Positions 1 to 45,272 of a stretch of DNA of 64,000 bases are shown in pieces (position 1 is the first letter of the stretch; each line of letters opens with the position of its first letter). The stretch is taken from the IMG/VR virus record IMGVR_UViG_3300046536_000256, positions 62,001-126,000 of that record; one strand, given 5' to 3'. The position numbers and the translations under genes are program-made. The notes beneath the pieces were generated by a model. It searched no databases and had not been told where the DNA came from. It was given only the letters and a program-made list of their open reading frames with translations. Origin of the DNA: a virus.

Positions 1-1
1 T

Positions 2-11539: not shown

Positions 11540-13723
11540 TTAGGCGTTTGGGTCGGTGTCCGGTACGTTAGCACCGGCGTTGCCGATATTGTCAACAACA
11601 ACGCGCTGAGAAGCCAGCTTCGACAGCAGACCTTCGTCACCCAGGAAGTCATGGGCGTCGGTGATGGTCAGCGAGCCGATGATTGGGTTCAGAGCCCAGT
11701 GCTTGTAGATCGGGAGGGTCATGACCACACCGAAGTCCTGCTGGTCACGAGTGACGTTGCCTTGGACCAGGATGTTTTCCTTGGACACGTTCACGCCGAT
11801 ACCGCCCAGAGGGTTGATGGTGTCGTTGGTGGAGGTGTTCTTCGGAACGATCAGGATTTGACCGATCTGCGAGTCGAAGTTGGTTTCGACTACGTTCAGG
11901 CTTTGCTTCGGACCAGTGGTACGAGCGTCGCCGGAGCGCATTACGAAACGGCTGAGGTTCTGGTGAACAACAACGGTCCACTCGATGTTGCCGTCAGTGC
12001 CGCCGTATTCAGCGATCGCAGCCAGACCCGACTTGGTGTTCAGGGCAGCAGTGATGTCGCTGATTTCGTTGGTGATGGCTGCGCAGACAGCGTCGAAGAC
12101 ACCCGAGGAGTCGATCGACGAAACTACGTCCTTCAGAGTGATCGCACGGTTAACTGCGGACGCAGTAACGAAGTGCTGACCGGCCAAGGTGTTGGAACCT
12201 TGGTTGTTGCCCACGACTGGGGAACCGTCGATGGAGGTGATGTACTTCAGGTGATCTTGAGCCTTGTCGAACGCGTTACGCGAGCACTGGTTGTTGATCA
12301 CGATGGACATCTGCTGGATTGCGAAGTCCAGGGAAGCCTGGTTGACGTCGTCCTTGCTGATCGGGTATTTCACCGACACTGGGGAGCGGCGCTGTACCGA
12401 CAGATGCTTGCGGGCATCGAACACTTCGATGCGATAGCCGAAGTTGCCACGGCTGGTGTTGGAAACGTTGAAGGTAGGCTTCATCGCCACAACGGTGCCG
12501 AGGCTGAACGAACGGATCAGCGCTTTCTGAGTGTCATCAGCTTTGCCGATGGTGATCAGGCTGCCAGTGGTCAGGTCGCGCAGAGCGTGAACTTCGGCAG
12601 TACCGGCGTTCAGGCGCAGTTCGTTGCCTTGACGCTGGTAGTTACCAGAAGCCGAGACGTTCAACATTGGCTCGTAGCCAGCGGTTTTGAAGCTAGCGAA
12701 AATGGTTTCGCCGACTTTCACGCCGTCTTTGTCTTCAACCGAGAAGCCTGGCAGAATGCGCAGGTGCATGTTGAGCATGCGATCGTCGGACGATTGACCG
12801 TTGGCGGTTGGGCCGAAGGTGTTGTTCGACATCGACTTGGTGTCGATGAAGAAGGTAACGGCGTTGGCGCCGATTTTGCCACCCAGAGCCATGGTGCGGA
12901 TGCTGATGGAGTTCGATTCGATTTCGTCGGTCGAAGTCCAAGGGCGCTGGCCAGGAACTTGGGTCAGACCCAGAAGGTTCGGTACGGTAACCGGAACAGT
13001 CAGGAACTGAGTTTTGTGAGCGCTACGGCCGTAGGCGTCGCCTTCGGAGTAGGTGGCGTTGGTTGGAGCAACCAGGCCGGCATCAGCGAACAGGGAACGA
13101 GTGTCGTCACCAGCGTCAGCTGGGTACACTGGCCACAGAGCCAGCACTTCGTCTTTGAACATTTCGCCGGAACGCAGCAGACCGAAGATCGGACGCAGCT
13201 CGGAAGCCGACTGCCATGCACTGTTGCCGTAGGCATAAGTGCCCAGACCAGCGGCACGTACGACCATTTCAGCGCCTTCATCTTCGTACTTGACGGAGAT
13301 GGTGGTGAAAAGTGCCTCAGCCGCAGGCGTTTGCAGGTGAGACTGGGCGTTGAGGGTCATGTTCGCAGCTTTCAGGTCAGCCTGATCGCCTTTGAAGTTT
13401 TGCATCGAGAAGCCTTCCAGACCTTGGATAGACTTCAGGCCAGCTTCGGCCTCGCCGAACAGGGACAGCGCTTCGCCTGGAACGCCGCTACGGCCTTTGG
13501 CGCCCATGAAAGCGTCGTACGCGCCGGGAGTCAGGACTTTCAGGCTCTTGCCGAGGGTGGCGCCTTCAGTGCCAGCAACCCCCATCATTTGCGATTGGAA
13601 AGTGTCGAAGCTCTCGTTACCCGAGAAGGTAGCCAGCGCGTTGTTGTTCACCAGCGATTCGCGGATAGCGTGGAACAGGTTGTTCTCCGGCTTCAGCGCT
13701 GCCGTCAAAATTTTCTTAGCCAT
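11540..13723 (-). CDS. Major capsid protein precursor, 727 aa
   Basis: phiKZ gp120-like major capsid protein: length, position and sequence character fit (the phiKZ protein is about 747 residues and made as a precursor). The N-terminal 100 residues are helical and contain two prohead-protease-type sites, GNE-SF at 35-39 and GLE-GF at 101-105, so the scaffolding-like propeptide is probably removed at or after the second. The rest is a beta-rich, Gly/Ser/Thr/Asn-rich shell protein without Cys clusters. The gene is GC-rich and uses a narrow set of codons compared with its neighbours, as expected for very high expression. ATG preceded by AGGAC. It is followed by a terminator, and an 18-bp palindrome lies in its 5' leader. 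Confidence 0.85.
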   Translation of the reverse strand: MAKKILTAALKPENNLFHAIRESLVNNNALATFSGNESFDTFQSQMMGVAGTEGATLGKSLKVLTPGAYDAFMGAKGRSGVPGEALSLFGEAEAGLKSIQGLEGFSMQNFKGDQADLKAANMTLNAQSHLQTPAAEALFTTISVKYEDEGAEMVVRAAGLGTYAYGNSAWQSASELRPIFGLLRSGEMFKDEVLALWPVYPADAGDDTRSLFADAGLVAPTNATYSEGDAYGRSAHKTQFLTVPVTVPNLLGLTQVPGQRPWTSTDEIESNSISIRTMALGGKIGANAVTFFIDTKSMSNNTFGPTANGQSSDDRMLNMHLRILPGFSVEDKDGVKVGETIFASFKTAGYEPMLNVSASGNYQRQGNELRLNAGTAEVHALRDLTTGSLITIGKADDTQKALIRSFSLGTVVAMKPTFNVSNTSRGNFGYRIEVFDARKHLSVQRRSPVSVKYPISKDDVNQASLDFAIQQMSIVINNQCSRNAFDKAQDHLKYITSIDGSPVVGNNQGSNTLAGQHFVTASAVNRAITLKDVVSSIDSSGVFDAVCAAITNEISDITAALNTKSGLAAIAEYGGTDGNIEWTVVVHQNLSRFVMRSGDARTTGPKQSLNVVETNFDSQIGQILIVPKNTSTNDTINPLGGIGVNVSKENILVQGNVTRDQQDFGVVMTLPIYKHWALNPIIGSLTITDAHDFLGDEGLLSKLASQRVVVDNIGNAGANVPDTDPNA

Positions 13724-13752
13724 GGATTAAAGTCCTGTGAGTTGAACATTTG

Positions 13753-13770
13753 AAACAAATATATTTGTTT
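13753..13770. promoter_or_regulatory. 18-bp perfect AT-rich palindrome in capsid leader
   Basis: AAACAAATATATTTGTTT is its own reverse complement and lies 30-47 bases upstream of the capsid ATG. It could be an operator, an RNA hairpin stabilising the leader, or part of a promoter. On the - strand TTTTATGTGC lies a little further upstream. Confidence 0.4.
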
Positions 13771-13806
13771 GCGCAAGTTGAGCTGCACATAAAATATGTA
13801 AGAGTG

Positions 13807-17679: not shown

Positions 17680-17682
17680 GAC

Positions 17683-22004: not shown

Positions 22005-23400
22005 CTTTCTTATCCTTGGTATCGTCGGCAACAAAGATCTTCGGGCTGATACCGGAGATTGCCTTCTGAATGCCTTGCATGAGTTTGGTGTGAGCCGCCA
22101 GTTCGAACTTGACGTTCTTCAACGCCTCCTTACCGGTTTTCACTTTGTCCTGGACCTTGGCCTTCTTCGCAGCAGCCACGTCCTTATTCGTTTCATCACC
22201 CGACGTATCGCTGGCCGCAGCCTTGATGTCACTTACCGCCTTCTGCGCGTCGGAGATCTCTTTATTCAGAGGACCGGCCGCAGTGGCTTCTTTGGACATG
22301 AACCCCATCAGAGCATCAATGACCTTAGGACCGTCGCTAGGAGTGCGCAACTGGCTGACCAGGTTCTTCAGTTTACCCGAAGGATCAACTTCAGCCATCA
22401 GGTTGGTGATGCCCTCCCGTGCCTTGTCATTGATGACAGCAGCGGTGGACTTCATGGACTGCAATGCCTTCTTGTTATTATCGGCCATTGTTTCAGCCGA
22501 CTTAACCTTTTCTTCAGGATTGCTGGTGGTGAAGAGATCCTTGATCGCGCTCAAGGACGCGGTCAGTGCATTCCAGGCTTTCTCACCCAGATCCTTGATC
22601 GCATCAAAGATAGGACCTTCCTGACCGGCGTAGCCCTCCAGACGAATGTTGTTGGCGCCCGCCACCCCGATGAAGTATTCACGGGCAGGAGACTCAACCC
22701 CATTGAGGAAGTCCTCCATCCCGTCGATTACCATCATCGGGTGATCCATTACGCAACCACAGGTACAGTCGGCGTCTTGCTTGCATTCCAGACCGTCCAC
22801 ATCAAAGTCGGGGTCAGGTGTCTCGCCCACTTCCTGCAATGCCGCCTCGGAGTATTCAGGGGCCCCGTAGACAGCACCCAGCTTGCAGGTCACAAAGACG
22901 TCAGTCAGCTCCAGCACCTTATCAAGGTATTCCAGCTTGTGGACATACGCTCGCAAGATATCGATGGGGAGATCATCCGTCCCCTCGTAGAACTGCATCA
23001 GCTTGCTCAGGATAAAGTGGGCTTCTTCAGAAATGGCATCAACGGATTCAGAGAACTCCATTGTACCGTTCTTATTCCCCATCCCGCAGATTGTCATGGC
23101 AAGGGTTTTGGAACGCTCGTAGATCCCGTTACGAAGATCTTTAAGGACGTCGCCCAGATACTGGTTCAAAGCGAAGTTAACCTTCATCTCAGAACCGTCG
23201 TAATAAGTGAAGCGATCTTCCAGACTGGCCAACGTGTTAAAGAAGCGTTTGGTGATCTCCTCCTTCGAGTTGGCGTCATCGCCGTAGAGCCCCATCGAGT
23301 CCAGCAACTTTTGCAGGATCGGGTGTTCAACTTTGGAAAAGGAAAACATCTTGGTGATCAACATCAACCCCAAGAGGTGTAACTGGAGATAAAGGCTCAT
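21997..23400 (-). CDS. Internal-head-type protein with Cys cluster, 467 aa
   Basis: Carries the signature shared by the internal-head proteins of this window: GQE-GP at residues 259-263, followed by an amphipathic helix (IFDAIKDLGEKAWNALTASL). If the prohead protease cuts there, the 261-residue propeptide is unusually long; additional G-x-E sites at 227-229 and 234-236 lie in it. The propeptide has a Cys cluster at about 206-216 (CKQDADCTCGC) that could bind metal. The C-terminal half is Lys/Asp/Ala-rich and helical. GGGAG precedes the ATG. Function inferred from the signature and from phiKZ inner-body biology. Confidence 0.7.
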   Translation of the reverse strand: MSLYLQLHLLGLMLITKMFSFSKVEHPILQKLLDSMGLYGDDANSKEEITKRFFNTLASLEDRFTYYDGSEMKVNFALNQYLGDVLKDLRNGIYERSKTLAMTICGMGNKNGTMEFSESVDAISEEAHFILSKLMQFYEGTDDLPIDILRAYVHKLEYLDKVLELTDVFVTCKLGAVYGAPEYSEAALQEVGETPDPDFDVDGLECKQDADCTCGCVMDHPMMVIDGMEDFLNGVESPAREYFIGVAGANNIRLEGYAGQEGPIFDAIKDLGEKAWNALTASLSAIKDLFTTSNPEEKVKSAETMADNNKKALQSMKSTAAVINDKAREGITNLMAEVDPSGKLKNLVSQLRTPSDGPKVIDALMGFMSKEATAAGPLNKEISDAQKAVSDIKAAASDTSGDETNKDVAAAKKAKVQDKVKTGKEALKNVKFELAAHTKLMQGIQKAISGISPKIFVADDTKDKKDE

Positions 23401-23903: not shown

Positions 23904-24956
23904 TCAGCCTTTATTAATGGTGGCGTTCAGAACCGACTGAGCCGCGAAGATAGATTTGTAGACAGCGGTCTGCAACATCTTCAGGTTACCCATGACAACA
24001 CGCACGGTAGCCTGGACCTCATTGGCCGCCGCAGTGAACTGCTTGGTCCCGTTTACATCGATGTTCTTGTTGAAGTCCATCAACGAGTTAAGAGACTTCA
24101 ACGACACGCGTTCGATGTGCATGGATGTTTCCAGCATGCTGTCTGCTGCCTTTAACAGGGCCTTCTGCTTGGTGAGCAAGTGGAGTACCTGACTTTGATC
24201 CGTTTTGAATTTAGGGTTCTTGCCCTGAAGCGGAGGATCGGGAACTTCTTTCAACTTACCGTGGCCGTCCATCTGGAAGTCCACACGGCCGTAGAGCGTG
24301 CTTGGGGTATTCAGTTTCTCGATGGCCAGCGCATTCTGTGCCGCAACCAGCAAAGCGTCATGCTCTTTCTTAACAGCGCCAGCACCGTCATCGTTAACCT
24401 TCTGGAAACCAGCCTCGGTGATGGCCTGGCAGCCCTTCTTCATGACCTCGATGTAGTCCTCGATCTTCTTGACCGCTTTCTCACAGTCGCCCAGAGCACT
24501 GTCCATCCAACCCAGGTTGGCGGCCGGGATACCGGTTTTGTTGTAGATGTCGCCGAAGCCGAGAGGGTAAGGAATCTCATCGGTGTTCACACCATGCTTG
24601 TCGATGCTCAATTCCAAGCTTACCGACTTACGCCCGGCAATCTCTTTCTTACCAGTAAAGAAAGAGAACAGCCATTTAAAGAAATCTTTCACCGACTGTA
24701 TAACGGCACTCAGGCCTTTCTTGATGCTGTCCATGAAACCAGCTTCGTTACCCGAGACGACGTCAATACTGGGAAGCGAGATGTGAGAGAAGACAGCCTT
24801 GTAGAACTCTTCGTTCCCGCTGACCGTGTCGTACTCGCGGGAGAGGGCGATTACCGTGTCGTCGTCAACGGCCTGATCGTACCCTTTCTTATCCTCGTTG
24901 TATTCCTCCAACAGAGTTGGGGTATTGATGAAACGAGGACTATCGCTAATGGACAT
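23904..24956 (-). CDS. Internal-head-type protein, 350 aa
   Basis: Two prohead-protease-type sites, GNE-EF (47-51) and GNE-AG (69-73), separate a short acidic propeptide from a mature N-terminus that forms an amphipathic, aromatic helix (MDSIKKGLSAVIQSVKDFFK, ending in FSFFTGKK). The remainder is helical and Lys-rich. This architecture matches the other cleaved proteins here. In phiKZ such proteins make up the inner body around which DNA is wound, or are ejected with it. AAGGGG precedes the ATG. Confidence 0.75.
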   Translation of the reverse strand: MSISDSPRFINTPTLLEEYNEDKKGYDQAVDDDTVIALSREYDTVSGNEEFYKAVFSHISLPSIDVVSGNEAGFMDSIKKGLSAVIQSVKDFFKWLFSFFTGKKEIAGRKSVSLELSIDKHGVNTDEIPYPLGFGDIYNKTGIPAANLGWMDSALGDCEKAVKKIEDYIEVMKKGCQAITEAGFQKVNDDGAGAVKKEHDALLVAAQNALAIEKLNTPSTLYGRVDFQMDGHGKLKEVPDPPLQGKNPKFKTDQSQVLHLLTKQKALLKAADSMLETSMHIERVSLKSLNSLMDFNKNIDVNGTKQFTAAANEVQATVRVVMGNLKMLQTAVYKSIFAAQSVLNATINKG

Positions 24957-25093: not shown

Positions 25094-26344
25094 TTAGATG
25101 TGTGCAGCAACAGCGTCCAGAGTCCAGCTGGCGCAACGCAGCATGTACTTGTGGGTCTGCTGAGTAACGGAAGCCGAAGTGGCGTAGATCGCACGAACCA
25201 GCGCAACCTGCTTGTTCACTTCGTCGGCTTTCTCTTTGTCGTCAGCTTTCACGACGTTGAGGGTGCCGATGACTTGGTCACGCTGAGCCTTGGAGAAGGC
25301 CTGTGCGGTTTTGTTGCCGCGGAACGCAGTGATGTCGGATTTGATCGACGTCAGGATGCGGGACAGCTCGCCTTTGTCAGCTTTAGGAGCCGACTCGCCG
25401 CTGGTCAGCTTCTTCACGTCGCCTTGGCCGAAGAAGATCTTGATGGAGCGAGCCATTTCGGCAGCTTCACCCAGGTCTTTCGCAGCGCCAGACTTCATCT
25501 CGGCGTGAACGCGCAGGCCGGCGTATTGACCGATCAGCACTTTCTTGTCGCCTTCCGATTTCTCGCCAGCTTCCAGGTCTTTCTTGGCGTCAGCAGCAAT
25601 TGCCGAAGTCAGAGCCGCGTAGGCAGTGTTGAACTTGCCCACTTCGATGCTGGTTGGCTTGCTGGCCACTTCAGCGAACTTGTCCAGCGCGGTACCAGTA
25701 GCGTCCCAGCCGTCCATGCCAGCTTTCAGGCCGTGCTTCTCGTAGTCGAACATGGCGTTCCAGCCGCCCAGCTTGACTTTCTCTTTCAGCTTGTCGGCGG
25801 CAGCCAGACGAGTGGAGAGTTGTTCCTGGCGACGGACCAGCTTTTCGATCTGCGAGAAGACGCCGACGAAGAAGTTGATCACGGTGTTGAAGATGTGCTT
25901 GATGACTTCGATGGCTTTCTTGGCGTAACCTTTGACGGTCTCCATGAAGCCTTCCATGCCATTGCGGGCCATGATCTGAGCGGTAGCCGCGTCGGACATG
26001 GATTCAACACCGCAGCGCTCGATGGACTGGCCGCCGAGTTTGGTGTTCAGCTTGGCCGCACGGTTGTACATGTTGGCGAAAGCGGTGGAGTTGAACGAGC
26101 CGGAATTGATCAGGGATTCCAGGCCTTCAACAACTTCCTGGATTTCTTCAACGGCTTCGTCCTGCTGCTTGACTTCTTCACGCAGCTCTTCGATTTCCTG
26201 GGAAACTTGTTCCAGGGTCACAGCGACTTCGGCGACTTCAGCGCGGACCGAATCTTCGGCGCCAACTTCAACAGCTTCAACAGGCAGCGTGCCGCCGTTC
26301 AGTTCCAGTTCTTCGAAACCGGCGTAGCGAGTCAGAATGCTCAT
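25094..26344 (-). CDS. Internal-head-type protein with coiled-coil propeptide, 416 aa
   Basis: The first 80 residues are acidic with a heptad coiled coil (LEQVSQEIEELREEVKQQDE). Sites of the G-x-E type follow at 74-76, 112-114 (GVE-SM) and 129-131 (GME-GF). After the last comes the aromatic amphipathic helix (METVKGYAKKAIEVIKHIFN, then FFVGVFSQIE) and a Lys/Ala-rich helical body. The gene is clearly GC-rich and uses restricted codons like the capsid gene, suggesting an abundant protein. AAGGA precedes the ATG; two palindromes lie in its leader. Confidence 0.75.
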   Translation of the reverse strand: MSILTRYAGFEELELNGGTLPVEAVEVGAEDSVRAEVAEVAVTLEQVSQEIEELREEVKQQDEAVEEIQEVVEGLESLINSGSFNSTAFANMYNRAAKLNTKLGGQSIERCGVESMSDAATAQIMARNGMEGFMETVKGYAKKAIEVIKHIFNTVINFFVGVFSQIEKLVRRQEQLSTRLAAADKLKEKVKLGGWNAMFDYEKHGLKAGMDGWDATGTALDKFAEVASKPTSIEVGKFNTAYAALTSAIAADAKKDLEAGEKSEGDKKVLIGQYAGLRVHAEMKSGAAKDLGEAAEMARSIKIFFGQGDVKKLTSGESAPKADKGELSRILTSIKSDITAFRGNKTAQAFSKAQRDQVIGTLNVVKADDKEKADEVNKQVALVRAIYATSASVTQQTHKYMLRCASWTLDAVAAHI

Positions 26345-26392: not shown

Positions 26393-27370
26393 TTAAGCGA
26401 AAACACCCAGTACACCATGAATGTACCGGTCGGTGTATCCGACCACACGCGGAGTGAATCCACTATAAAATGCAAGCGCCCCGCGGTTTCCTTCCAGAAG
26501 CTTTTCGGCTTCCTTCAACGCAGACTTGCTAACGCGGTATTCCAGCTTGGTCATGTTCTCATCGACGCCCTTAACCATTTCGGTCCAAGACTTGATGTAG
26601 GCCAGATAGCCGTCGTAGGCCGCCTTAACGCGCTGATGAAGACTGTTGACCTTGTCCAGCTTATTCAGCAGTTCAGCAGCGCTGGACTTGGATAACGAAA
26701 GGTCACCGCCTTCGCCCGCAGGAGTATCCCCCGACATAGAATATTTCGGAGTATCAGCGTCGCCACTGGTAAACGTCCATTCCTTGCCGCCTGGGAGAAC
26801 ATCGGATGCCGCCAAGACCGGGTACTTCAGCTTCTCGACCGCGTCAATAACCCCGAAGACGTCATCCGTGTGTTTGGCGTCTTTGAGTTTACGTACCGCG
26901 ATAAGCTGAGCATCAAGATGGTCCAAGACCGCCTTGTTGTGCTTGTCCAACGCTTCCAGGTTTCTGATCAGGATGTCCATATCGCGAGAGATATTGTCCG
27001 GATCGCCTTTGCAGGTGATCATCCCGACCTGAGTTGCCGAAAGCTTCAGAGTGTGGTCGTCCGCTTTGCCCACGTCACCCAACAAGCGCTTGATGTAAGA
27101 CTTGTTGTCATCGAAGGACTTAGAAAGCGCACTACCGGCCGTCTGAATGACGGAGGAGAAGGCGGTAAGAGCTTTACCACCTACCCACATAGTAACGCTT
27201 AGCAAGCCGTTACCCAGCTCCTTCATGCTGTCAGCGAAGGCTTCGTTCCCCGCTACAGAATGGGGATCGGTTGCCATCAACCGGCCTAAATCGATTACAT
27301 CGTTCCCAGCTTGGAGCAGCTTAATGTGCTGCTCCAGTGCCGAGGTCAGATCTCTTTGAATCTGAGACAT
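26393..27370 (-). CDS. Internal-head-type protein, 325 aa
   Basis: GNE-AF at residues 41-45 marks a likely prohead-protease cut after a 43-residue propeptide. The following helix (ADSMKELGNGLLSVTMWVGG) and the helical Lys/Asp-rich body match the other cleaved proteins. GAGGTGGG precedes the ATG. The gap to the gene upstream is 18 bases, consistent with co-transcription. Confidence 0.75.
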   Translation of the reverse strand: MSQIQRDLTSALEQHIKLLQAGNDVIDLGRLMATDPHSVAGNEAFADSMKELGNGLLSVTMWVGGKALTAFSSVIQTAGSALSKSFDDNKSYIKRLLGDVGKADDHTLKLSATQVGMITCKGDPDNISRDMDILIRNLEALDKHNKAVLDHLDAQLIAVRKLKDAKHTDDVFGVIDAVEKLKYPVLAASDVLPGGKEWTFTSGDADTPKYSMSGDTPAGEGGDLSLSKSSAAELLNKLDKVNSLHQRVKAAYDGYLAYIKSWTEMVKGVDENMTKLEYRVSKSALKEAEKLLEGNRGALAFYSGFTPRVVGYTDRYIHGVLGVFA

Positions 27371-27388: not shown

Positions 27389-28708
27389 TTAAGGAGTGTT
27401 GACCTTGATGGAAGTGTGGCAGAGTTCAACCAGACCGGCGATGATCAAGACCAGGTAGCTGTTCACCGCAACGCGGATGTTCAGCAGTTCCATTTGGTTC
27501 TTCCGCACCAAGGCAGAGAACGTAGTCAGGAGCTTGTCCTTCAGCTCATCGCTGATGTCGGATTCAAAGAACCCTTTGGTGATGTCGGAGTAATCCGATT
27601 CACCCAGCTTGAACTTCTCGCCGCCGTCGAAGACCTTACGCCATTCTTTCAGCACGTCACGCAGCAGCTTAATCACGGCCTTGATCTGTTGCGAAGACAG
27701 GGACTTGATTTCCAGGTCCAGCTTCGGGTAGATCATCGGAGCCGAGTTATCGAAGCCGGTCGTGTCGATGTCGAGGAAACGGGTCACGAAGTCTTCAACC
27801 TCACCGATCGATTTGGTAGCCCGACCGCTGTTGTTCTGACGAATGTCGACGAAGTAGGCGCCGCCCATCAACTCAACCGACTGCTTAGCCGTGGCTGCCG
27901 CCACCGAATGCTGAGGGCACGGGTAGGTGCACTCTTTGAAACGTTCCGACGGGATAGACACACCCAACAGCATGAAACGTTCTTCGGCTTCTGCCTGAGA
28001 CTTGCCTGCAAAGCCGCCAAAGTAGCTCAGGGTGGCGTTGAGGCTGTTACGGTTGTTCAGGTAGTAGTTCTGACTCAAACCCGACAGAGAGCGGCTCAGC
28101 TTGCTCAGGTCTTCAACCCAGTTCTCGCTGACCTTACCGTTTACCTTGAACAGGTTAAACAAACGGTTGCCCAGCAGAATCTTCTCACGGTCCTTTTCGA
28201 ACGGTGGAGAAGTGCTGATTGAGTTTTCCAACAAGTCCACCGACGCTTCCAGGGAGTCCTGGCTTTGGGTGAACAAGATGTAAGCCTCTTTGAAGCCTGT
28301 GCCCATCTGGGAGATGATCTGGCGTGACTTCTTGAAGAAGTCTTCCATGAAGCTCTCACAGCCTACCAGACGGGTGAGCAGGTAGTCCTTCGGCATCAGA
28401 GAACGACCCAGTGCCTCAAAGCCCTCCACCGAGTCAACACCTTCAACCGGAGGGATTTCAACTTCAGACCGCTCCAGTTGCGCATCCATGACTTCCGCCA
28501 AGGAGGGAGTGACTTCATGCGCCTTGAGGGCTTGCAGGGTGTCCTTCACGGACTGAACACGATCTTTCGAGTTGTCCAGTTCGTTCTGGTAACGGTTGAG
28601 GTCACCAGAGTTCGCGGCGCTAGCTACGATTTCCGCAGACGTCACCACGTTAATGGCGGCCATCTCAGCCGCCAGCTTTTCGTTTGCAAGTACCTCAGGA
28701 CTAGCCAT
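27389..28708 (-). CDS. Internal-head-type protein, 439 aa
   Basis: G/S-x-E sites lie at 93-95 (SVE-GF) and 116-118 (GCE-SF). After the second comes FMEDFFKKSRQIISQMGTGF, a version of the amphipathic mature N-terminus. The body is helix-rich with a hydrophobic C-terminal segment (VNSYLVLIIAGLVELCH). Its start overlaps the stop of the upstream gene by 8 bases, so the two are coupled. The Cys in place of Asn in GCE is a small departure from the usual site. Confidence 0.7.
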   Translation of the reverse strand: MASPEVLANEKLAAEMAAINVVTSAEIVASAANSGDLNRYQNELDNSKDRVQSVKDTLQALKAHEVTPSLAEVMDAQLERSEVEIPPVEGVDSVEGFEALGRSLMPKDYLLTRLVGCESFMEDFFKKSRQIISQMGTGFKEAYILFTQSQDSLEASVDLLENSISTSPPFEKDREKILLGNRLFNLFKVNGKVSENWVEDLSKLSRSLSGLSQNYYLNNRNSLNATLSYFGGFAGKSQAEAEERFMLLGVSIPSERFKECTYPCPQHSVAAATAKQSVELMGGAYFVDIRQNNSGRATKSIGEVEDFVTRFLDIDTTGFDNSAPMIYPKLDLEIKSLSSQQIKAVIKLLRDVLKEWRKVFDGGEKFKLGESDYSDITKGFFESDISDELKDKLLTTFSALVRKNQMELLNIRVAVNSYLVLIIAGLVELCHTSIKVNTP

Positions 28709-30087: not shown

Positions 30088-31203
30088 TTACGCGCCCCCG
30101 TTCAACAGTTTAACCAGATCAGCCAGCGTGTTGCTGCCCGCATCTTTCTTGGATTTGCCCGACAGGTCCTTACGAGTGTAAGTCTCTGCCATGTTCGAGC
30201 CGTGAGTGTAGAACGTGTAGATACCACGGTCTTCATTGCACACGACGATGGTGTTAGCCTTGACCGCTGCGAAGATCTTGTCGCGAGACTTCGGATCATC
30301 GAAACGCTTACCAATGGACAGCTCAAGCTGGTTGGCGGTGTCCTTGGTAAAGATGAAGCTGTTGGCCAAGCTGTTGAAGCTGACCAAGCCGGTACGGATC
30401 GCCGCCATGCGGTTACCAGTTTCACGGCTCAGGGCTTCTTTGTAGTAGCCGGACATGTCCTCGTTCTTGATGCGGAAGCGCTCTTTCACGAGGTCCAGAC
30501 CACTGATGAACTCAGGAGAGGTGATCTCGCCTGTTTTGACCATCAGCATGCGGGCGAAGAAACCGTCTTCACCTTTGGCCGCCGAGAAGACTTTGTCCAA
30601 GTCCTTTGGCTGGATCGGCACGGGGATTTGGCGGAAGGTCAGAGGGAACTCAACCTTAACGCCGTTGTCGCCGTAGATGGTGGCGTTAACCACTTTACCG
30701 ATGGCCAGCGGGGCGAACTCGTGCAGATCAGGGAAGGTCTTGCCGCCGACTTGAACGTAGTTGGCTTTACCCTCATCGTCATCTTTACCAGTACCGTCTT
30801 CCAGACCCTTGATGTTGTCATCAAGTGCTTCCGCACCCAGGACCGAGAGCATGCCGCCGCGGTTAGGGTTGATGGTGCCGATGATGTCGCGAACCTTGAC
30901 ACCCATGCCCGCAGAGTTCTGCAAAGCCAAGTGAGTCAGGGTTGCTACCACGTCACGCAACATGACGATTTGCATCAGGTCGCCCATGAACTCTTGGTGC
31001 AACAGAGACGCTTCCACAGCGACCATTGGGGCAATGATTGCTTGGTTCGCAGACTGTGTCACCGACGTGGTCGAAACCACATTGTATGAACGTTTTACTC
31101 GCTCCGCCGCATCAGCCGCCGAGCCAAGATCTTTGCTGTCTGGGTAGACTTTCGACGCGAAGTCGAGAAAGAAAGACCCCAGGTTAAGTACACTTCCGAT
31201 CAT
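30088..31203 (-). CDS. Putative virion protein, 371 aa
   Basis: Not recognised. First gene of the - strand run 31203-27389; GGAGAGG precedes the ATG. The N-terminus (SVLNLGSFFLDFASKVYPDS) is an amphipathic aromatic helix like the mature ends of the cleaved proteins, but no G-x-E precedes it. The rest is mixed, with a Lys-rich C-terminus. Divergent from the + strand gene at 31231 with a 27-base gap that contains both ribosome sites. Confidence 0.75.
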   Translation of the reverse strand: MIGSVLNLGSFFLDFASKVYPDSKDLGSAADAAERVKRSYNVVSTTSVTQSANQAIIAPMVAVEASLLHQEFMGDLMQIVMLRDVVATLTHLALQNSAGMGVKVRDIIGTINPNRGGMLSVLGAEALDDNIKGLEDGTGKDDDEGKANYVQVGGKTFPDLHEFAPLAIGKVVNATIYGDNGVKVEFPLTFRQIPVPIQPKDLDKVFSAAKGEDGFFARMLMVKTGEITSPEFISGLDLVKERFRIKNEDMSGYYKEALSRETGNRMAAIRTGLVSFNSLANSFIFTKDTANQLELSIGKRFDDPKSRDKIFAAVKANTIVVCNEDRGIYTFYTHGSNMAETYTRKDLSGKSKKDAGSNTLADLVKLLNGGA

Positions 31204-36026: not shown

Positions 36027-37552
36027 ACCATTTTCCCCCAGCCAGTTTGTTTGGAGAAGTTATTCAGCGTGGTTTTAACACCACCGAAGTCGTTCTTGAT
36101 GATGGTCTCAACGACCGCGGCATTCTTCTCGCCGAAGGTCTTTGCGTCCGCTTCTTTGATGAACACCATGTCGCGAGCGTAGGCGTAACCTTCCGAGTCA
36201 CCGAAACCAGCATGACCTTTAGCCCGTGCCTGCATCACCAGGTTCGCCGCTGTCTCTACTTCGCCCAACAGGCCGTTGTAGTAGTAGGCGTGCGCGCGGT
36301 TGTACCAGTCCGCCAAGTTAGATGCCTGGCGTTCAACGATCAACAGCGATTGCGAGATGCTGTAACAGAACTGAGAGAAGTTCCGTACGTCCGCGGCCAT
36401 CACCTGATACATCTGAGCCAACGCCGGGTAATTGTAGAAGCCAGCAATCTCATTGATCTTGTCGGCCTCACCCTTGTCGATTACCGAAGCCAAGTCCTTA
36501 AAGTTGATCTTGGACAGGTCAGCGGTGTTCTCGGTGATTTCAATGTACCGCGTGTTGAGCGCCTGGATGCTGTGCAGGATAGTCGAGACATCCTGTTTTC
36601 TCACCTTAACCATCTCGGTGACCACAGTCTCCTGGATCTTCTTGCGGCAATTGCTGAAGCCGCTCTGAAGCTCGTCGTTGCTGAACTTGATGTTGTACAG
36701 TGTTTCATACAACTTGCTGACCAAGCTGGCCACAACGTCGACATCAAGGCCCAGCACCACTTCGTTAATCTCCTTGGTCAGGCGGTTAACTTCAGGGGAC
36801 ATACTCACCGAGGTCTGCAACGCAGGGTTACCGGCACGCACACGGGTCTTGGTGTATTCCTTGCTAATCAATGCCTTAAGCGATTGATTGTTCTTGGCCA
36901 CCTTGTCCGTGATCTGACCCAGCTTAGCCATCGCCTGTTGCAGCAGTGGCATGGCTTCGATCAGACTGTCAATGGCGCCTTGGTCCGTTTCGAACTTGCT
37001 CTTCAGCAGGGTCAGCTGCGCGATCCGGTCCTGGTTAGGCGGCAGGTTCATCAGGAAGTTTTCGAGGTTGTATTCACTGGCGGGGAAACCCAGGCCACTG
37101 AGTACAGTAACGAACTCTTGCTTCAGTTTACCCAGGTCGTCGTTGATCGCCTTGTTGATACGGGCGCTCTTACGGAAACCAAAGATCCCTTTCACCGTGT
37201 CGACCACCCAGTCCACCGCCATGCGGATGTACTTGATGATGTTCTCGATAAAAGCCTTGAAGCCATCCTTAATAGCGCTGAAGAAACCTTCCTGACCAGC
37301 ACGGGCATTACGCTCAGACGGGAACGGGTCGTAGTTCTCGTGGTTTGCCAGTTTGAAGTGAGCCGCTACACGCTTGGAGAACTTACCCAGTTGCATGCTT
37401 TCAATGCCGCTGACCATGACGGTTGCATCGTCTTGCTGGGTTTCTTTGTAGTACTCGGTCAAATCAACGCGTTGTTTGCTGGTGCCCGGCTCATACGAAT
37501 CGTCCGGGTGACCAGTGGCGATCTGTTTGTATGTGTCCAGGTAATCACTCAT
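36023..37552 (-). CDS. Internal-head-type protein, 509 aa
   Basis: The frame opens at 37585, but the ATG at 37552 (MSDYLDTYKQ) overlaps the upstream stop by 8 bases and is preferred. GQE-GF at residues 86-90 is a clear prohead-protease site, followed by FSAIKDGFKAFIENIIKYIR, the amphipathic helix seen in the whole family; a second site GIE-SM lies at 49-53. The body is a long helical, Lys/Asn-rich domain. Inner-body role inferred from the phiKZ family. Confidence 0.75.
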   Translation of the reverse strand: MSDYLDTYKQIATGHPDDSYEPGTSKQRVDLTEYYKETQQDDATVMVSGIESMQLGKFSKRVAAHFKLANHENYDPFPSERNARAGQEGFFSAIKDGFKAFIENIIKYIRMAVDWVVDTVKGIFGFRKSARINKAINDDLGKLKQEFVTVLSGLGFPASEYNLENFLMNLPPNQDRIAQLTLLKSKFETDQGAIDSLIEAMPLLQQAMAKLGQITDKVAKNNQSLKALISKEYTKTRVRAGNPALQTSVSMSPEVNRLTKEINEVVLGLDVDVVASLVSKLYETLYNIKFSNDELQSGFSNCRKKIQETVVTEMVKVRKQDVSTILHSIQALNTRYIEITENTADLSKINFKDLASVIDKGEADKINEIAGFYNYPALAQMYQVMAADVRNFSQFCYSISQSLLIVERQASNLADWYNRAHAYYYNGLLGEVETAANLVMQARAKGHAGFGDSEGYAYARDMVFIKEADAKTFGEKNAAVVETIIKNDFGGVKTTLNNFSKQTGWGKMV

Positions 37553-37986: not shown

Positions 37987-39390
37987 TTACGCTGGCAAAG
38001 CTTCTGGATCACGCCGTTCTTTCAGTGCCGCCAACTTGACGGCGAACACGTTCAGTTCGTGGTTCGACAGAACCTGGGTGTAGTGCTCGATTTCTTGCAG
38101 CTTGAAATCACCACCGTTGAACACCCAACCCATGGCACGCTGGATAACGGTGTTGTCGTACCACGGTTTGAATTTCTTGTTCAGCTCGAGCATCTGGTCA
38201 ACGGTTTTCACCAACTCAGCTTTCTCGGCCGAACCCACGCCCTTGTCTTCTTTGATCTTGGCAACCATTTGACGGAGGGCATCTTCAAAGCGACGGTGAT
38301 CGGCGTTGTACACGCTCGAGTAACCTTTGCTGAAGTATTCGCAGACGAACAAAGTCGTGAAGAGGCATCCGCTGAAGATAGTAAATGGCAGAATACCACC
38401 TCCAGCCGCGAGGGTCAGCGCGATGCCAGGGGTCATCAACATTTCGATAATGATGGTAAAGAGGGCTGCGGAGATCAGGCTGTTGACCACATGGGTAATT
38501 GCACCAATGTCGATGAAAGCCGAGATCACAGCAATGATACCTTTGTCACACCCCATACGAATGGCGTACATGTCAGCAACCACTTCCGACGACATACGCT
38601 CTACGCCTACGGACAGACTACGGCGGCTGTTGCGCTGCACAGTCAGTTTGTTCCAATAGAGGACAAACGCTTCCTCGTTAGGGTTCTGGGCAATGGCTTG
38701 TAGTTCGGCAATCTTGGCTGGATCGAGTTCCAAGATGGAGGCGGTATCTTTCAACACCATCACGCGGTCCTCTTCACGCTCAGCCTTCTTGTAGAACTGT
38801 AGGGCTGCTTTCGCTACCAGGTTGTCCGACGCAGCGGTGTAGATCATCATGCAGCCACCGAAAACGTGGCCGAGTTCATGTGCAATAGCACCGGCAATGA
38901 TACCGTGGATTGGGACACCGTACTTGGCGACCTTCTCTGGTTCAAAGGGGACGCTCAGGTTTACGTTGATGTGCAGGTTAACCGGGATCGTTGCGAAGCT
39001 ACCGCTGACTTTACCAGTACTGTAATCGATGGAGCCCTTGAACAGCTTGACCTTGTTCTCGGCGAACCAGCGATACAAAGTGGTCTTGGTGATGCCCATC
39101 AGCTGGTCCGTACCTTCGTTGTTGAAAACGTGGTGCGGAGAGAAGTACCCAGTGTCAACCGCTAGGTTACCCTTCTCTTCAAGCTTGACCGTAATGTTCT
39201 TGAAGCCGGTGAATTCTTCGATGATCGGGAGGATGTCTTTAGCAACGTCCTTACCCAACACCGATTTACCATTAACCAAGGTAATGTTCTTTTCGACGGC
39301 AGTGCTCAGGATATCGTAGAACCGAGTGGTCTGAAAGTCGATGAATTCGATACCAGCACGGCTGGATTTAAGAAAATCAATAGAGATCAT
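37987..39390 (-). CDS. Membrane-associated zinc metalloprotease, 467 aa
   Basis: Residues 171-175 are HELGH, the HExxH zinc site, on a helix (IHGIIAGAIAHELGHVFGG). Downstream, SSEVVADMYA (Glu269, Asp273) fits the third zinc ligand region E-x-x-x-D of M48-like peptidases. Then come hydrophobic segments at about 284-350 (four short stretches, e.g. ITHVVNSLISAALFTIIIEM) that could cross or insert in a membrane, and a charged C-terminus. Peptidase activity is likely; the substrate is unknown. It stands among internal-head genes, so a head-internal or injected enzyme is possible. The usual prohead protease of phiKZ is a serine enzyme, so this is probably not it. AAAGGAG precedes the ATG. Confidence 0.7.
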   Translation of the reverse strand: MISIDFLKSSRAGIEFIDFQTTRFYDILSTAVEKNITLVNGKSVLGKDVAKDILPIIEEFTGFKNITVKLEEKGNLAVDTGYFSPHHVFNNEGTDQLMGITKTTLYRWFAENKVKLFKGSIDYSTGKVSGSFATIPVNLHINVNLSVPFEPEKVAKYGVPIHGIIAGAIAHELGHVFGGCMMIYTAASDNLVAKAALQFYKKAEREEDRVMVLKDTASILELDPAKIAELQAIAQNPNEEAFVLYWNKLTVQRNSRRSLSVGVERMSSEVVADMYAIRMGCDKGIIAVISAFIDIGAITHVVNSLISAALFTIIIEMLMTPGIALTLAAGGGILPFTIFSGCLFTTLFVCEYFSKGYSSVYNADHRRFEDALRQMVAKIKEDKGVGSAEKAELVKTVDQMLELNKKFKPWYDNTVIQRAMGWVFNGGDFKLQEIEHYTQVLSNHELNVFAVKLAALKERRDPEALPA

Positions 39391-41250: not shown

Positions 41251-41257
41251 CAGCCAT

Positions 41258-41297: not shown

Positions 41298-41310
41298 TAT
41301 TCACGGTTGG

Positions 41311-42303
41311 TTACTTCACGTAGTTGGTTTTCAGCCAGTTACTGAATTTGACGCAGTCACTAATGGCGTCTTCCAGGTACTGGTTGAGTTTGACCAGTGC
41401 TTGCAGGAACTCTTTACCAGCGGCCAAATCGCTCTTAAGCTTAGGGAGTTCCTTGTCATTCTTCTTGGTAGCCTTGACACGTTTCTCCAGATCGCTGATC
41501 GCGCTTTGCAGGTTGCTTTTGATACGGTCCAGCGGAACACGCGCATCCTTCATACGACCTAGGTACTTCTTGACCTCGAACTGGCTCTCGAGTGCTTTAA
41601 CAAAGCCGTCAATCGAGATGGCCTTGCGGAGTACCTTGTCTCGATCAACGTGTTCCATTTTGCCCAAGGCGATGTGCAGCTCGTCGTGAAGATTTTCGAA
41701 AGTAGTGCCTTTATACTTCCCTTCTTCGGACGGGTCGGCGATGGCGGTCAGCTTCTGGCTGGTGCGCTCGGCTTTGTCGACCAAATCGCTAAGCTCAGCG
41801 CGGCGCTTACCATTCATAGCCTCCCATTCTTCTTCTTCCTTCTTCCACTTAGCGTCACGTTCCGCTTTCTTCTTGGCCGCTTCCTCGTCGTCAGCCTTGT
41901 TTTCAGCCTTATTCTTGGCGATTTGGTCATCAAGTTCTTGATGACGCTTCTTCATTTCCTCGGCGTTACTTTCAACGCGAGTAATGGCGGCGGTTTCTTT
42001 CTTGGCAATCGCATCGTCGCTGCTACCGAAGAAGAAGTTCCAGATTCCCTTGAAGAGCTTGGCGATGAAATCCCAAACAGCCTGAAGACCATTGCCGATC
42101 GCCCCGAAGAAGCTCTCGTTACCAGCAACTCGTTCAGCACGAGAGAGCGCGCCATCTGCTTCCAGGATGGAGTAAACGTAAACCTGAGCAGGCACCAGGG
42201 AATAACTTTCCGAACCGTTCAGCCGATCCAGAGAAGCTGTCAAAGCATCGAAAGCCATACCAACGTGGCCTGCGTCCGAAACACCGTAATCTTCATTGCT
42301 CAT
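41311..42303 (-). CDS. Internal-head-type protein, paralog 1, 330 aa
   Basis: One of three adjacent paralogs. An N-terminal acidic propeptide contains GSE-SY (30-34) and then GNE-SF (61-65), followed by the amphipathic aromatic helix FGAIGNGLQAVWDFIAKLFK and a GIWNFFFG end. The body is a long Lys/Glu-rich helix (KNKAENKADDEEAAKKKAER) likely to form coiled coil. In phiKZ such proteins are processed in the prohead and packaged with the DNA; here this is inferred. Last gene of the 44555-to-41311 run. Confidence 0.75.
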   Translation of the reverse strand: MSNEDYGVSDAGHVGMAFDALTASLDRLNGSESYSLVPAQVYVYSILEADGALSRAERVAGNESFFGAIGNGLQAVWDFIAKLFKGIWNFFFGSSDDAIAKKETAAITRVESNAEEMKKRHQELDDQIAKNKAENKADDEEAAKKKAERDAKWKKEEEEWEAMNGKRRAELSDLVDKAERTSQKLTAIADPSEEGKYKGTTFENLHDELHIALGKMEHVDRDKVLRKAISIDGFVKALESQFEVKKYLGRMKDARVPLDRIKSNLQSAISDLEKRVKATKKNDKELPKLKSDLAAGKEFLQALVKLNQYLEDAISDCVKFSNWLKTNYVK

Positions 42304-42319
42304 GATGTAACCTCGTGAA

Positions 42320-43411
42320 TTAAGCGTGCGCCATACCGAACAGGCGCATGATGGTTGTACTGATCTGCTTCAGGCCTTCATCGCAGGTTTCAATCTGCTT
42401 GGCCAGGCGGGTGGTCAGACTCAGGAAGATCTTGCACGCGGTCAGGTCCTTACGGAACTGGGCTTCTTCGGCCGAGTTCCCTCGTTTACCAGCGATAGCG
42501 ACTTGCTTCTCGAGCAGCTTGACCTTGCTGATAATCGGACCCTTCTGCGCCACGATGAACAAACGCTGACCACCTAGGTCAGTGTGCAGCATACGCGTGA
42601 TGATAGTCTGCGCCGCGATTGCATCTTTGAGGTTGTGGATCCTCGAGAACTCAGCGATGTCGAGCCCATTGGAATCTTGCAGGTCGGTGTGGAAGCTGTG
42701 GTACATCGACTCGAATTCAGTACCCGCGAACTGAGCAGACTCGTCCTTCATCACCATGGTGTTGAAGTCTTCGGTGATCTTGTTCACCCGGGTTACCTGC
42801 TCAATCAGGTGTTGCTTCTGACGGCGGTTCAAACGACCAACTGCTTCGGCGACTTCCTTAACAGCGTGGGCTTTTTCGGCAGGTGTGGGGTGCTCGGGGA
42901 CCTTGTCGATAATAGCTTTCACCTGAGCGGCTTCGGCAGGCGTTGCGTCAGAGGACCCCATGAACTTATCCAGGGCCTCAACACTATCGATGTGTGCCAT
43001 CTTTGTCCAAGTGGCGTCGGTTGTCGGCGTAGGCTTGGCTACCAGCACGCTGGAGAGGGAATCCGCGTTGACCTTGACCTTGATCTCGGTCTTCTTGGTC
43101 TTCTGCTCAGCAGAGTTCTCCGAGGTGCCAAAGAAGAAAGAGGAGATGCCATTGAACATCTTCATGATGTAATTCCAGATGGCTTTCAAACCATCCCCAA
43201 TTGCACCAAAGAAACTTTCGTTACCATCCACCTTCTGCTGGTGGGTGAGGTCGTCGCCAGCGCCCAGTACTGCAAAGGCGTATTGCTGAGCCCGCGTCAA
43301 CCCAAAGCCTTCGCTGCCGGTAACACCGTCGAGGGTGTCGGTGATAGCTTCGAACATGAGTTCCAGGTGTTCAACACCAGCAACACCGTAATCTTCTTGT
43401 ACATCATCCAT
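42320..43411 (-). CDS. Internal-head-type protein, paralog 2, 363 aa
   Basis: Same plan as its neighbours: GSE-GF (32-36) in the propeptide, GNE-SF (63-67), then FGAIGDGLKAIWNYIMKMFN and ISSFFFG. The N-terminal 70 residues are nearly superimposable on paralog 3 (VTGSEGFGLT then AQ). The body has diverged and is rich in Ala, Lys and Thr. 16-base gap to paralog 1. Confidence 0.75.
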   Translation of the reverse strand: MDDVQEDYGVAGVEHLELMFEAITDTLDGVTGSEGFGLTRAQQYAFAVLGAGDDLTHQQKVDGNESFFGAIGDGLKAIWNYIMKMFNGISSFFFGTSENSAEQKTKKTEIKVKVNADSLSSVLVAKPTPTTDATWTKMAHIDSVEALDKFMGSSDATPAEAAQVKAIIDKVPEHPTPAEKAHAVKEVAEAVGRLNRRQKQHLIEQVTRVNKITEDFNTMVMKDESAQFAGTEFESMYHSFHTDLQDSNGLDIAEFSRIHNLKDAIAAQTIITRMLHTDLGGQRLFIVAQKGPIISKVKLLEKQVAIAGKRGNSAEEAQFRKDLTACKIFLSLTTRLAKQIETCDEGLKQISTTIMRLFGMAHA

Positions 43412-43425
43412 GGTGGATTCCCCAG

Positions 43426-43438
43426 TTAAGCAAATATA
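43426..43438 (-). promoter_or_regulatory. TATATTTGCTTAA element
   Basis: On the - strand TATATTTGCTTAA lies between the hairpin at 43448-43477 and the ATG of paralog 2. It resembles the TATGTTTGCTTG elements at 6097 and 11387 in sequence and position, though it has TATA in place of TATG. Confidence 0.3.
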
Positions 43439-43447
43439 AAGGAATAG

Positions 43448-43477
43448 GCCGGGATAACCTTTTACAGTTATCCCGGC
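43448..43477 (-). terminator. 11-bp hairpin between paralogs
   Basis: GCCGGGATAAC (43448-43458) pairs perfectly with GTTATCCCGGC (43467-43477) around an 8-base loop, just beyond the stop of paralog 3. Confidence 0.7.
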
Positions 43478-43487
43478 TTAACGGTTG

Positions 43488-44555
43488 TTACAGGCAGAAC
43501 ACGCGCTTGGTGGCCTTTTTCAAGGTCAAGATGTCTTCGACGCTGGTTTTGACGTGGTGAGCGAAGCCGCTGCAATACGCCAGGATCACGCGCAGTTGAC
43601 CCAACAGAGTCGTTGCGGTTTTGTTTTCGGCGGTGGACTCTTTCAGCTGTTTCTCGCACTCGGCGATTTGCTTGGAGATGGTGTTCTTCTGATCGTTCAT
43701 CGCCTTGACCGCTTTCTTGGCCTCGTCGATGTCGTTGATCATCGCCTGAGCAACGCTCTTGGCTTTGTTCAGATCGCCCAGCTCTTTGATTTCTTCCAGC
43801 TGGTCCAGGAATTTCTTGCTGGCCGTGATGAACGGGTTCATCTTCTGGAACATTTCCCAAGCCAGACCGTGTTCAGCCCCGCCGACCATGGACTTCTTCT
43901 TGGAGTCTTCATGGAACGCCAGGAGTTTGGTCAGCTTGTCAACAATGCGCTGGACAGCCTTGACGAAAGCGGCTTGGCCATCTTTGTTGAACTTCGGCGC
44001 TTCATGGCCGATCATCAAGATGACTTCTTTCTGCTCGGCGGGAGTTTTGGCTTTCTTCTCGCGTTCCAGCAGGCTGTTGACGATGGTCAGTTCGGCGCCA
44101 GTGGCGGTTTGCGCGAGGGACTCGAGGCGACCTTTCATGGTGCTGATCTGGTCGGCGATTTCTTTCTCGCTACCCTTGCCGATCTCGTCGAGCTCTTTCT
44201 TGAACTCGGTGACGTCTTCTTTGGCTTTGTCGAGCAGAGCCGGGGCGTCACGGTTGAAGAAGAAACCCCACAGGCCTTTGAACATCTTGACGATGTATTC
44301 GTAGACCGATTTAGCGCCGGTGGCGATCGAACCGAAGAACGATTCGTTACCGCCGACCGAGCTGGCTTTGATAGCACCGCTGGCCATCAGAACGCCTTCA
44401 GCATAACGCTGAGCTTCGGTCAGACCAAAGCCTTCACTGCCGGTAACACCGTTGACAGTGTCGTCCAGTGCATCGAACATGATCTCGATGTGGGGACGGT
44501 CACTGACGTCAAAGCCTTCGTTTTCATCACCTGGAGCAATATCAAGAGGATCCAT
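43488..44555 (-). CDS. Internal-head-type protein, paralog 3, 355 aa
   Basis: GSE-GF (39-43) and GNE-SF (69-73) mark the likely propeptide cuts; FGSIATGAKSVYEYIVKMFK and GLWGFFFN follow as the mature amphipathic helix. The body is Lys/Glu/Ala-rich helix with Lys-Lys pairs. The gene is GC-rich with restricted codons, suggesting higher expression than the two paralogs. It is separated from paralog 2 by its own terminator. Confidence 0.75.
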   Translation of the reverse strand: MDPLDIAPGDENEGFDVSDRPHIEIMFDALDDTVNGVTGSEGFGLTEAQRYAEGVLMASGAIKASSVGGNESFFGSIATGAKSVYEYIVKMFKGLWGFFFNRDAPALLDKAKEDVTEFKKELDEIGKGSEKEIADQISTMKGRLESLAQTATGAELTIVNSLLEREKKAKTPAEQKEVILMIGHEAPKFNKDGQAAFVKAVQRIVDKLTKLLAFHEDSKKKSMVGGAEHGLAWEMFQKMNPFITASKKFLDQLEEIKELGDLNKAKSVAQAMINDIDEAKKAVKAMNDQKNTISKQIAECEKQLKESTAENKTATTLLGQLRVILAYCSGFAHHVKTSVEDILTLKKATKRVFCL

Positions 44556-44615
44556 GGTACTTTCCTTTATTCTAATCTGGAGAAGTTGGGAGTGGGAGTA
44601 CTAAACCCCGCCGGC

Positions 44616-45272
44616 TTAAACGCTGGCGAGTTTGTTGAAGTACTGGGTGAGGTTGCGCTTGGCCTGAGGTTGCAGGCTGTTCGCCGCGTAGGTGATGTCG
44701 ATCAGCTTCTTCAGCTTGAAACGAACATTCCAGTTGATCGCGATTTTGGTCAGCACCTGCATGTACGACTGGTAGCTCTTGACGATGTCGTAGTACGGAC
44801 CTTTGTCCAGACCCACGGTAAAGCGGAACGCCAGACCATCGGTGAAGACCTGTTGGTTCGCACGGATCTGCTCCAGCAGGTAATCGGTAACGACCACGTA
44901 GCCTTCGAAATCCTGCTTCATCGAGTTACCGATCGTTTCAATGAAACTGATCTGCTCGGCGTTGCGCTCTTCAACGTTGTTGAAGCCTTCTTCGCCAGTC
45001 AAGTACTTCATGTGGCGATTGATGCGCGCGATCATGTCAGCAGTGACCAGGTTGCCTTTAGCGTTGAGCATTTTGCCCACGCCAATGACATCAGGGATCG
45101 GAGCCAGAGTAGGCTCTGCTGCTTTAACTTCAACCGCTGGAACTGGAGTCTTAATAACCGACGCCAGTGTTTGCACAGGGGCTTGTTTCGTTGGGGCGGG
45201 AACGACAGGCGCTTCAACAGCAGCACTCGTATCCTCTGTTTCTGGTTTAACGTATTCTTTATCGGTGCTCAT
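44616..45272 (-). CDS. Internal-head-type protein with Pro/Ala linker, 218 aa
   Basis: The frame opens at 45335, but the ATG at 45272 (MSTDKEYVKPETE) follows AAAGGG and is preferred. The first 80 residues are a Pro/Ala/Val-rich, acidic linker (AAVEAPVVPAPTKQAPVQTL). GEE-GF at 93-97 is a variant of the cleavage signature. The C-terminal 120 residues are a compact helical domain without the aromatic helix. It may be a distant relative of the neighbouring family. Confidence 0.7.
   Translation of the reverse strand: MSTDKEYVKPETEDTSAAVEAPVVPAPTKQAPVQTLASVIKTPVPAVEVKAAEPTLAPIPDVIGVGKMLNAKGNLVTADMIARINRHMKYLTGEEGFNNVEERNAEQISFIETIGNSMKQDFEGYVVVTDYLLEQIRANQQVFTDGLAFRFTVGLDKGPYYDIVKSYQSYMQVLTKIAINWNVRFKLKKLIDITYAANSLQPQAKRNLTQYFNKLASV

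Follow-up and report, generated by a model that had tools for sequence, protein, structure and literature searches.

A candidate clade-specific cleavage code of the prohead protease in head proteins of an EL-type jumbo phage

Which enzyme reads a short peptide signature that recurs in the head proteins of a giant phage, and how narrow is its recognition rule? We address this question for the signature G-x-E-[S/G/A]-F within a 64-kb window, i.e., the whole stretch of DNA analysed, which spans bases 62001-126000 of the 233,283-base virus record IMGVR_UViG_3300046536_000256. Judged by its sequence, the source virus belongs to the EL group of phiKZ-type jumbo phages; the capsid protein of the window shows 64% identity to that of Erwinia phage RisingSun and 59% to that of Pseudomonas phage EL. 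A preliminary description had assigned the signature to the capsid protein and about ten others and had linked it to cleavage by a phiKZ-type prohead protease.

In the following, a slash marks the predicted cut between the P1 Glu and the P1' residue, such that P3 is the Gly two positions before Glu and P5 lies two positions before this Gly. Genes over the whole record were called by a codon-usage score trained on the window, which resulted in 231 predicted proteins with predicted starts. Coordinates prefixed with G000 are positions of the whole record, while plain coordinates refer to the window. Given the results below, the motifs are in all likelihood recognition sites of the phage's own S80 prohead protease, which would cut after Glu, remove propeptides as well as its own tail, and depend on clade-specific residues at P3 and P5.

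Candidate sites in the capsid protein and the protease

The major capsid protein (727 residues; 11540..13723, minus strand; Pfam PhiKZ_MCP 1.3e-135; PHROG major head protein) carries a predicted N-terminal propeptide of about 103 residues with three candidate sites, all on the minus strand. The first, GNE/SF (residues 35-39, 13607..13621), is propeptide-internal and is kept as G-x-E with a bulky P2' residue (F 19, Y 2, L 1) in 22/22 distinct EL-type capsid proteins. The second, GTE/GA (residues 51-55, 13559..13573), is also propeptide-internal and reads G-x-E-[SG] in 22/22, with H, Q, A, I, L or M at P2'; the P2' residue of this genome is not bulky. The third, GLE/GF (residues 101-105, 13409..13423), is the predicted maturation site and is conserved as G-x-E-G-F in 22/22 with variable P2. 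That is, Gly and Glu are invariant at all three sites while the middle residue is free. The maturation site aligns with GLE163/NY of phiKZ, and the mapped site ATE130/YY of Salmonella phage SPN3US is found a few residues away; counterparts of the maturation site are GTE/AF in Ea35-70, AME/SF in PhiEaH1 and SME/GY in Yong XC31.

The protease gene is located in another part of the record (G000:174428-175276, minus strand), beyond the window, and was for this reason missed by the preliminary description. Its product matches Peptidase S80 (PF20034, 1e-66) and phrog_3014, head maturation protease (7.9e-73). The C-terminal region of this protein (282 residues) contains GLE/SY at 205-209 and GSE/SF at 247-251, and G-x-E is present at both tail sites in 25/25 distinct homologs (GLE/[SDQ][FYL] and G[TNSM]E/[SD][HFYL], respectively). 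The region matching these tail sites in gp245 of SPN3US harbors the mapped autocleavage AQE-203. H79, H123 and S164 are among several His and Ser residues that are invariant in 24 protease homologs. The AlphaFold model of a homolog (88% identical) including the tail has a mean predicted local distance difference test (pLDDT) score of 58, which is too poor for use, and a profile search of the PDB with the protease found no solved relative, T4 gp21 included.

Homologous enzymes are known from other phages. The protease is 32% identical over 213 residues to gp175 of phiKZ (also Peptidase S80), which has a C-terminal propeptide, processes capsid, portal and inner-body substrates, and likewise cuts after Glu in a small-x-Glu motif. 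The T4 prohead protease gp21, a distant homolog of the S80 family, cuts after Glu as well and trims N-terminal propeptides and itself (PMC9026906). The proposed phiKZ-type protease sites are thus very probable with respect to the encoded S80 protease, the conservation of sites with free P2 and the capsid alignment; one of the proteins originally assigned, at 44616, is probably a chance match (see below).

Enrichment, sharper rule and lineage dependence

We compared motif counts with those from within-protein shuffles (300 for G.E[SGA]F, where dots denote any residue), which control for composition but not for local structure. In the 231 proteins of the whole genome, G.E[SGA]F occurs 13 times, mainly in head proteins, while 2.45 occurrences are expected (standard deviation 1.57, maximum 8 in 300 shuffles). 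Control patterns in the same frame (G.D, G.Q, A.E) reach 0.75-1.8x expectation. The annotated proteome of EL shows 10 occurrences vs. 2.5 expected.

Could a motif this short and degenerate simply match by chance? The bare motif is indeed short: it ranks second among 28,338 patterns of the same shape in this genome (p-value 1.4e-6, about 0.04 after Bonferroni correction), and the match in the protein at 44616 as well as several non-head matches look like chance. Since the raw count is thus borderline after pattern-wide correction, we base the argument on conservation and the refined pattern instead. The conservation at aligned sites, the replication in independent genomes and the contrast between lineages leave next to no probability for chance as an explanation.

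The site logos of capsid protein and protease show Val or Ile at P5. The accordingly extended pattern [VILF].G.E[SGA][FYLMIH] occurs 24 times in this genome vs. 4.07 expected (z-score 9.8) and 18 times in EL vs. 4.2 expected (z 6.9). The sharpened rule would thus read [V/I/L/F]-x-G-x-E, cut, [S/G/A]-[F/L/M/Y/H], where P1' may be D in the protease, and Val, Ile or Leu at P5 is probably the strongest extra determinant. The anchor position itself is distinct, i.e., V.G.E shows 27 occurrences vs. 6.4 expected and VG.E 7 vs. 6.8 in this genome, while the respective values in pTD1 are 27 vs. 1.4 and 5 vs. 1.4. Versions with Ala or Ser at P3 (A.E, S.E) are not comparably enriched, such that the P3 set S/A/G of phiKZ is narrowed to Gly here. 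T4 gp21 differs in this respect too, its P3 class being Leu/Ile-x-Glu, unlike the Gly found here.

We also assessed the residues after the cut in eight further members of the clade, where 104/130 sites of the head clusters are located in the first 150 residues of the protein. At P1', Ser is enriched 4.0x, and Ala and Gly are also enriched. Given S, G or A at P1', Phe is enriched 6.9x at P2', followed by Met (3.8x) and Leu (3.4x), while Tyr is not enriched. Because Met and Leu are enriched as well, and since capsid site 51 has H, Q, A, I, L or M, Phe at P2' is a preference rather than a requirement. The preliminary description had expected a rule more specific than the phiKZ motif [S/A/G]-x-E, with an aromatic or small residue after Glu. 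The rule is indeed narrower, i.e., Gly at P3, S/G/A at P1', a hydrophobic P5 and a P2' preference; the "aromatic or small" residue mixed two positions, of which P1' is small and P2' is bulky hydrophobic. Cys at P2 (GCE) is about 13x above background in the eight EL-clade head clusters, e.g., in orthologs of the protein at 27389 and in the protease tails of Miami and OBP.

The same motif frames were counted in 16 phages. V.G.E with small P1' and hydrophobic P2' shows a z-score of 8.2 in this genome and of 5 to 25 in EL, RisingSun, FishSpeaker, Miami, pTD1, OBP, PS1, pEt-SU and Sureiya, i.e., the P5 term is reproduced in nine other genomes. It is absent from SPN3US, where VA.E reaches z 6 (z 11 with open P2'). 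This SPN3US code, obtained from sequence alone, agrees with the published mass-spectrometry logo (PMC10052503), which validates the approach. V.G.E is likewise absent from phiKZ, which shows S.E (z 4.3) with a Ser-rich P3. PhiEaH1 shows VS.E (z 6.4), Ea35-70 has G.E with a hydrophobic residue at P4 rather than P5, and the signal of Yong XC31 is mixed. LucasX gave no signal in the stretch analysed, which probably lacks most head genes.

In a tree of capsid proteins, a branch with full support has the V-x-G-x-E phages on one side, while the other lineages are placed on long, poorly resolved branches; we therefore do not claim a number of P3 switches. These observations suggest a clade-specific cleavage code, i.e., V-x-G-x-E in EL/OBP-type phages and other versions in sister lineages. 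From such patterns we infer cleavage, contacts of P5 and P2' with the enzyme, and a joint switch, in which the protease and many of its targets seem to have moved to a new recognition rule in concert.

Further predicted substrates and the role of the P2' residue

The pentapeptides listed in the preliminary description are present in the translations, i.e., GNE/SF at capsid residue 35 and in the proteins at 41311, 42320 and 43488, GLE/GF at capsid residue 101, GQE/GF at 36023, GME/GF at 25094, GCE/SF at 27389 and GNE/AF at 26393. That the capsid protein and about ten others share G-x-E-[S/G/A]-F thus holds for most sites; two of them (21997, 23904) deviate and the one at 44616 is probably due to chance. 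What had been overlooked are the prohead protease, the portal, a further paralog, two likely substrates and the hydrophobic P5.

All of the following window sites are on the minus strand. The protein at 36023 carries a propeptide-internal site GIE/SM (37394..37408; GSE/SL in EL, GAE/AF in RisingSun) and the predicted maturation site GQE/GF (37283..37297), which is kept as GxE/[GS]F in EL, RisingSun, FishSpeaker, Miami, pTD1 and OBP. The internal head protein at 25094 (phiKZ_IP, 3.4e-38) has GVE/SM as propeptide-internal site (25997..26011; GxE/S[FIL] in 6/6 relatives) and GME/GF as predicted maturation site (25946..25960; GxE/[GAS][FML] in six relatives). These last two sites (25946-26011, minus strand) are 17 residues apart, and the intervening SMSDAATAQIMARNGME is strongly conserved in relatives though it would be discarded. 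The virion protein at 27389 has GCE/SF as predicted maturation site (28349..28363; GCE/[SG]F in EL, RisingSun, Miami and pTD1). The predicted site GNE/AF at 26393 (27236..27250) corresponds to GNE/EF in RisingSun, GNE/DF in FishSpeaker, GNE/TL in Miami and GEE/SL in pTD1, while GSE/AL of EL is a few residues off. A likely substrate is also the protein at 30088 with GAE/AL (30823..30837; GLE/AM in EL, GCE/AY in RisingSun, GAE/SF in Miami), a homolog of SPN3US gp50, which is a cleaved protein.

Deviations are found for three of the assigned proteins. The predicted site at 23904 reads GNE/AGF (24738..24752): G-x-E is kept (GTE/GF in EL, GME/AGF in Miami), but Phe follows one place later. The predicted site at 21997 is GQE/GP (22612..22626), kept as GSE/GQ in EL and GNE/GK in RisingSun, and thus only GxE/G holds, without Phe. 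GEE/GF at 44616 (44982..44996) is probably no cleavage site, i.e., it aligns with GKK-GF (EL), GEK-GF (RisingSun) and GTA-SF (FishSpeaker), such that Glu is not conserved.

Outside of these genes, the portal protein, whose C-terminal part opens the window (1..1732, plus strand; phrog_3004, 1.4e-158), has the sites GNE/AY and GLE/AI upstream of the window. Two additional predicted substrates are a paralog at G000:23150-24343 (GSE/GM and GNE/EGG) and the protein at G000:148811-150247 (GAE/AL). The latter is homologous to SPN3US gp262 via EL gp13 (EL gp13 vs. gp262, E-value 4e-41), and gp262 contains AVE/SF and was listed as possibly cleaved, with peptide coverage C-terminal to such a motif (PMC10052503). 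The protein at 37987-39390 (minus strand), a homolog of SPN3US gp45, shows an N-terminal RAGIE/FIDF, which could be a site but, having Phe at P1', does not follow the rule; gp45 is cut at ASE-20/SIGF.

Pseudomonas phage EL and Erwinia phage RisingSun show the same sites at orthologous positions of their head proteins. More generally, orthologs from EL, RisingSun, FishSpeaker, Miami, pTD1 and OBP keep most sites of the proteins at 36023, 25094, 27389, 26393 and 30088 as well as of portal and protease. Compared with EL, GxE[SGA] is found at the same aligned place for 17/28 sites in head proteins and 7/31 elsewhere, with identical P2 in 6/17. Fixed P3, P1 and P1' combined with free P2 is the pattern expected from a protease motif.

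Three paralogs share the N-terminal module phrog_21850 and carry two sites each, i.e., GNE/SF (42109..42123) and GSE/SY (42202-42216) at 41311, GNE/SF (43211..43225) and GSE/GF (43304-43318) at 42320, and GNE/SF (44337..44351) and GSE/GF (44427-44441) at 43488. A search of viral contigs with the paralog at 43488 found no relatives. The paralogs (41311-44555, minus strand; L003:3150-4343; EL gp50 and gp165) show a conserved stretch of about 30 residues from one site to the next, with the pattern GSE/GFxLTxAQxYxxxxL and then GNE/SFFG. This peptide, which would be released whole if both sites are cut, may be a head-targeting signal.

Such relationships raise the question whether the motif is common only through paralogy of head proteins, with no recognition rule behind it. 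An N-terminal module is indeed common to the proteins at 41311, 42320, 43488, L003:3150, 23904 and 21997. However, capsid, portal, protease and the proteins at 30088 and 27389 belong to other families and have the same motif. When the paralog family is left out, G.E[SGA]F still occurs 8 times vs. 2.3 expected (z 3.7) and the extended pattern 17 times vs. 3.9 expected (z 7.0). Furthermore, G, E and P1' remain constant in the midst of a variable P2 and variable flanks. We thus consider paralogy alone a very improbable explanation.

A more serious alternative is that the G-x-E sites are truly cut while the protease does not read the P2' Phe, which would merely be the first residue of a mature amphipathic helix. 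In ten non-capsid substrates of the window, the 36-residue segment that follows the cut is predominantly hydrophobic and amphipathic, with a best 18-residue moment of mostly 0.54-0.69 vs. a background of 0.36 (standard deviation 0.11); six of the ten share one N-terminal module, such that about five cases are independent, and 26393 is the weakest. Phe one place later at 23904 and Pro at P2' of 21997 also fit this alternative. In contrast, F, Y or L is kept at P2' of the discarded capsid site 35, and F, Y, L or H in the protease tail, although neither place precedes a mature helix. Phe or Tyr is also found at P2' of the capsid maturation site in all 21 capsid proteins compared, and the mapped sites of SPN3US show a hydrophobic P2' in 10/14. 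We regard a P2' Phe unread by the protease as conceivable but somewhat unlikely. The residue may serve both roles, where recognition is the likelier reason for the overall pattern.

Several observations weigh against recognition of the full rule by the S80 protease. The P5 position is occupied by Arg, Thr or Tyr in some sites (25094, the site at residue 86 of 36023, protease 205, 21997), and capsid site 51 as well as the 21997 site have no bulky P2'. The P5 term was spotted on the logos of capsid protein and protease and then tested on proteomes containing those proteins. At most maturation sites, P2' Phe is also the residue where the mature helix begins. Finally, none of the literature searched gave a mapped cleavage site for an EL-clade phage, the EL proteome paper being outside of this scope; the mass spectrometry paper on RisingSun provides a protein list only.

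Two observations concern other genes of the window. A helicase-like gene (53649-55961, minus strand) contains an apparent intein of about 240 residues between '...STGFGK' and '...VTHNTYMG'. Two HNH-endonuclease-like proteins (51321-51830 and 55980-56939, minus strand; e.g., HKDNNKAHFETDNLVW) are putative homing endonucleases.

Relation to known head maturation systems

The preferred reading, i.e., recognition by the phage's own protease, implies the following course. During head maturation, the S80 protease would cut after Glu in [V/I/L]-x-G-x-E / [S/G/A]-[F/L/M], such that N-terminal propeptides are stripped from capsid, portal and internal head proteins, often via two or three sites each, and would trim its own C-terminal tail. 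The EL-type clade would rely on Gly at P3 plus a hydrophobic residue at P5 as anchor, while sister lineages would combine Ala, Ser or Gly at P3 with different anchors. Removal in several short pieces fits the idea put forward for SPN3US that smaller fragments exit the head more easily (PMC5694885).

For phiKZ, the motif was given as S/A/G-x-E (PMC13282480, PMC5694885) or as S/A-x-E with no other identifiable requirement (PMC9026906), and S/A/G/T-x-E was reported for 201phi2-1 and A-x-E for SPN3US (PMC5694885). While no further requirement is reported for phiKZ, here we observe Gly at P3, a hydrophobic P5, S/G/A at P1' and F/L/M at P2'. SPN3US gp245 uses A-x-E with Val at P4 and Ser at P1', based on 14 sites that mass spectrometry located in nine head proteins, among them capsid, portal and the protease tail (PMC10052503); we read the sites of gp47 and gp50 by motif, given that the published residue numbers mismatched the RefSeq proteins. 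That is, SPN3US combines Ala at P3 with a Val anchor at P4, while Gly at P3 is combined with a Val anchor at P5 here. The EL-clade code is hence a variation on a known protease system, and the system itself is not new.

A further-reaching idea, which we consider rather unlikely, is a lineage lock, in which the protease and about 15 substrates with about 25 sites switched jointly (G, A or S at P3; anchors at P4 or P5). The propeptides of internal head proteins are acidic (net charge -3 to -24), and the cut would strip them and expose a hydrophobic amphipathic N-terminal helix that was masked until head maturation. Conceivable targets of this helix would be, as speculation, DNA, the inner body or, at ejection, the host inner membrane, e.g., in the early infection vesicle.

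A 2017 study of SPN3US asked whether protease mutations shifted specificity and hence which head proteins are processed (PMC5694885). Lineage codes make this question testable from sequence, i.e., they would predict substrates, mature ends and the sites that a sister protease should spare. They also offer a way to annotate the head and ejected proteins of giant phages, which are mostly called hypothetical.

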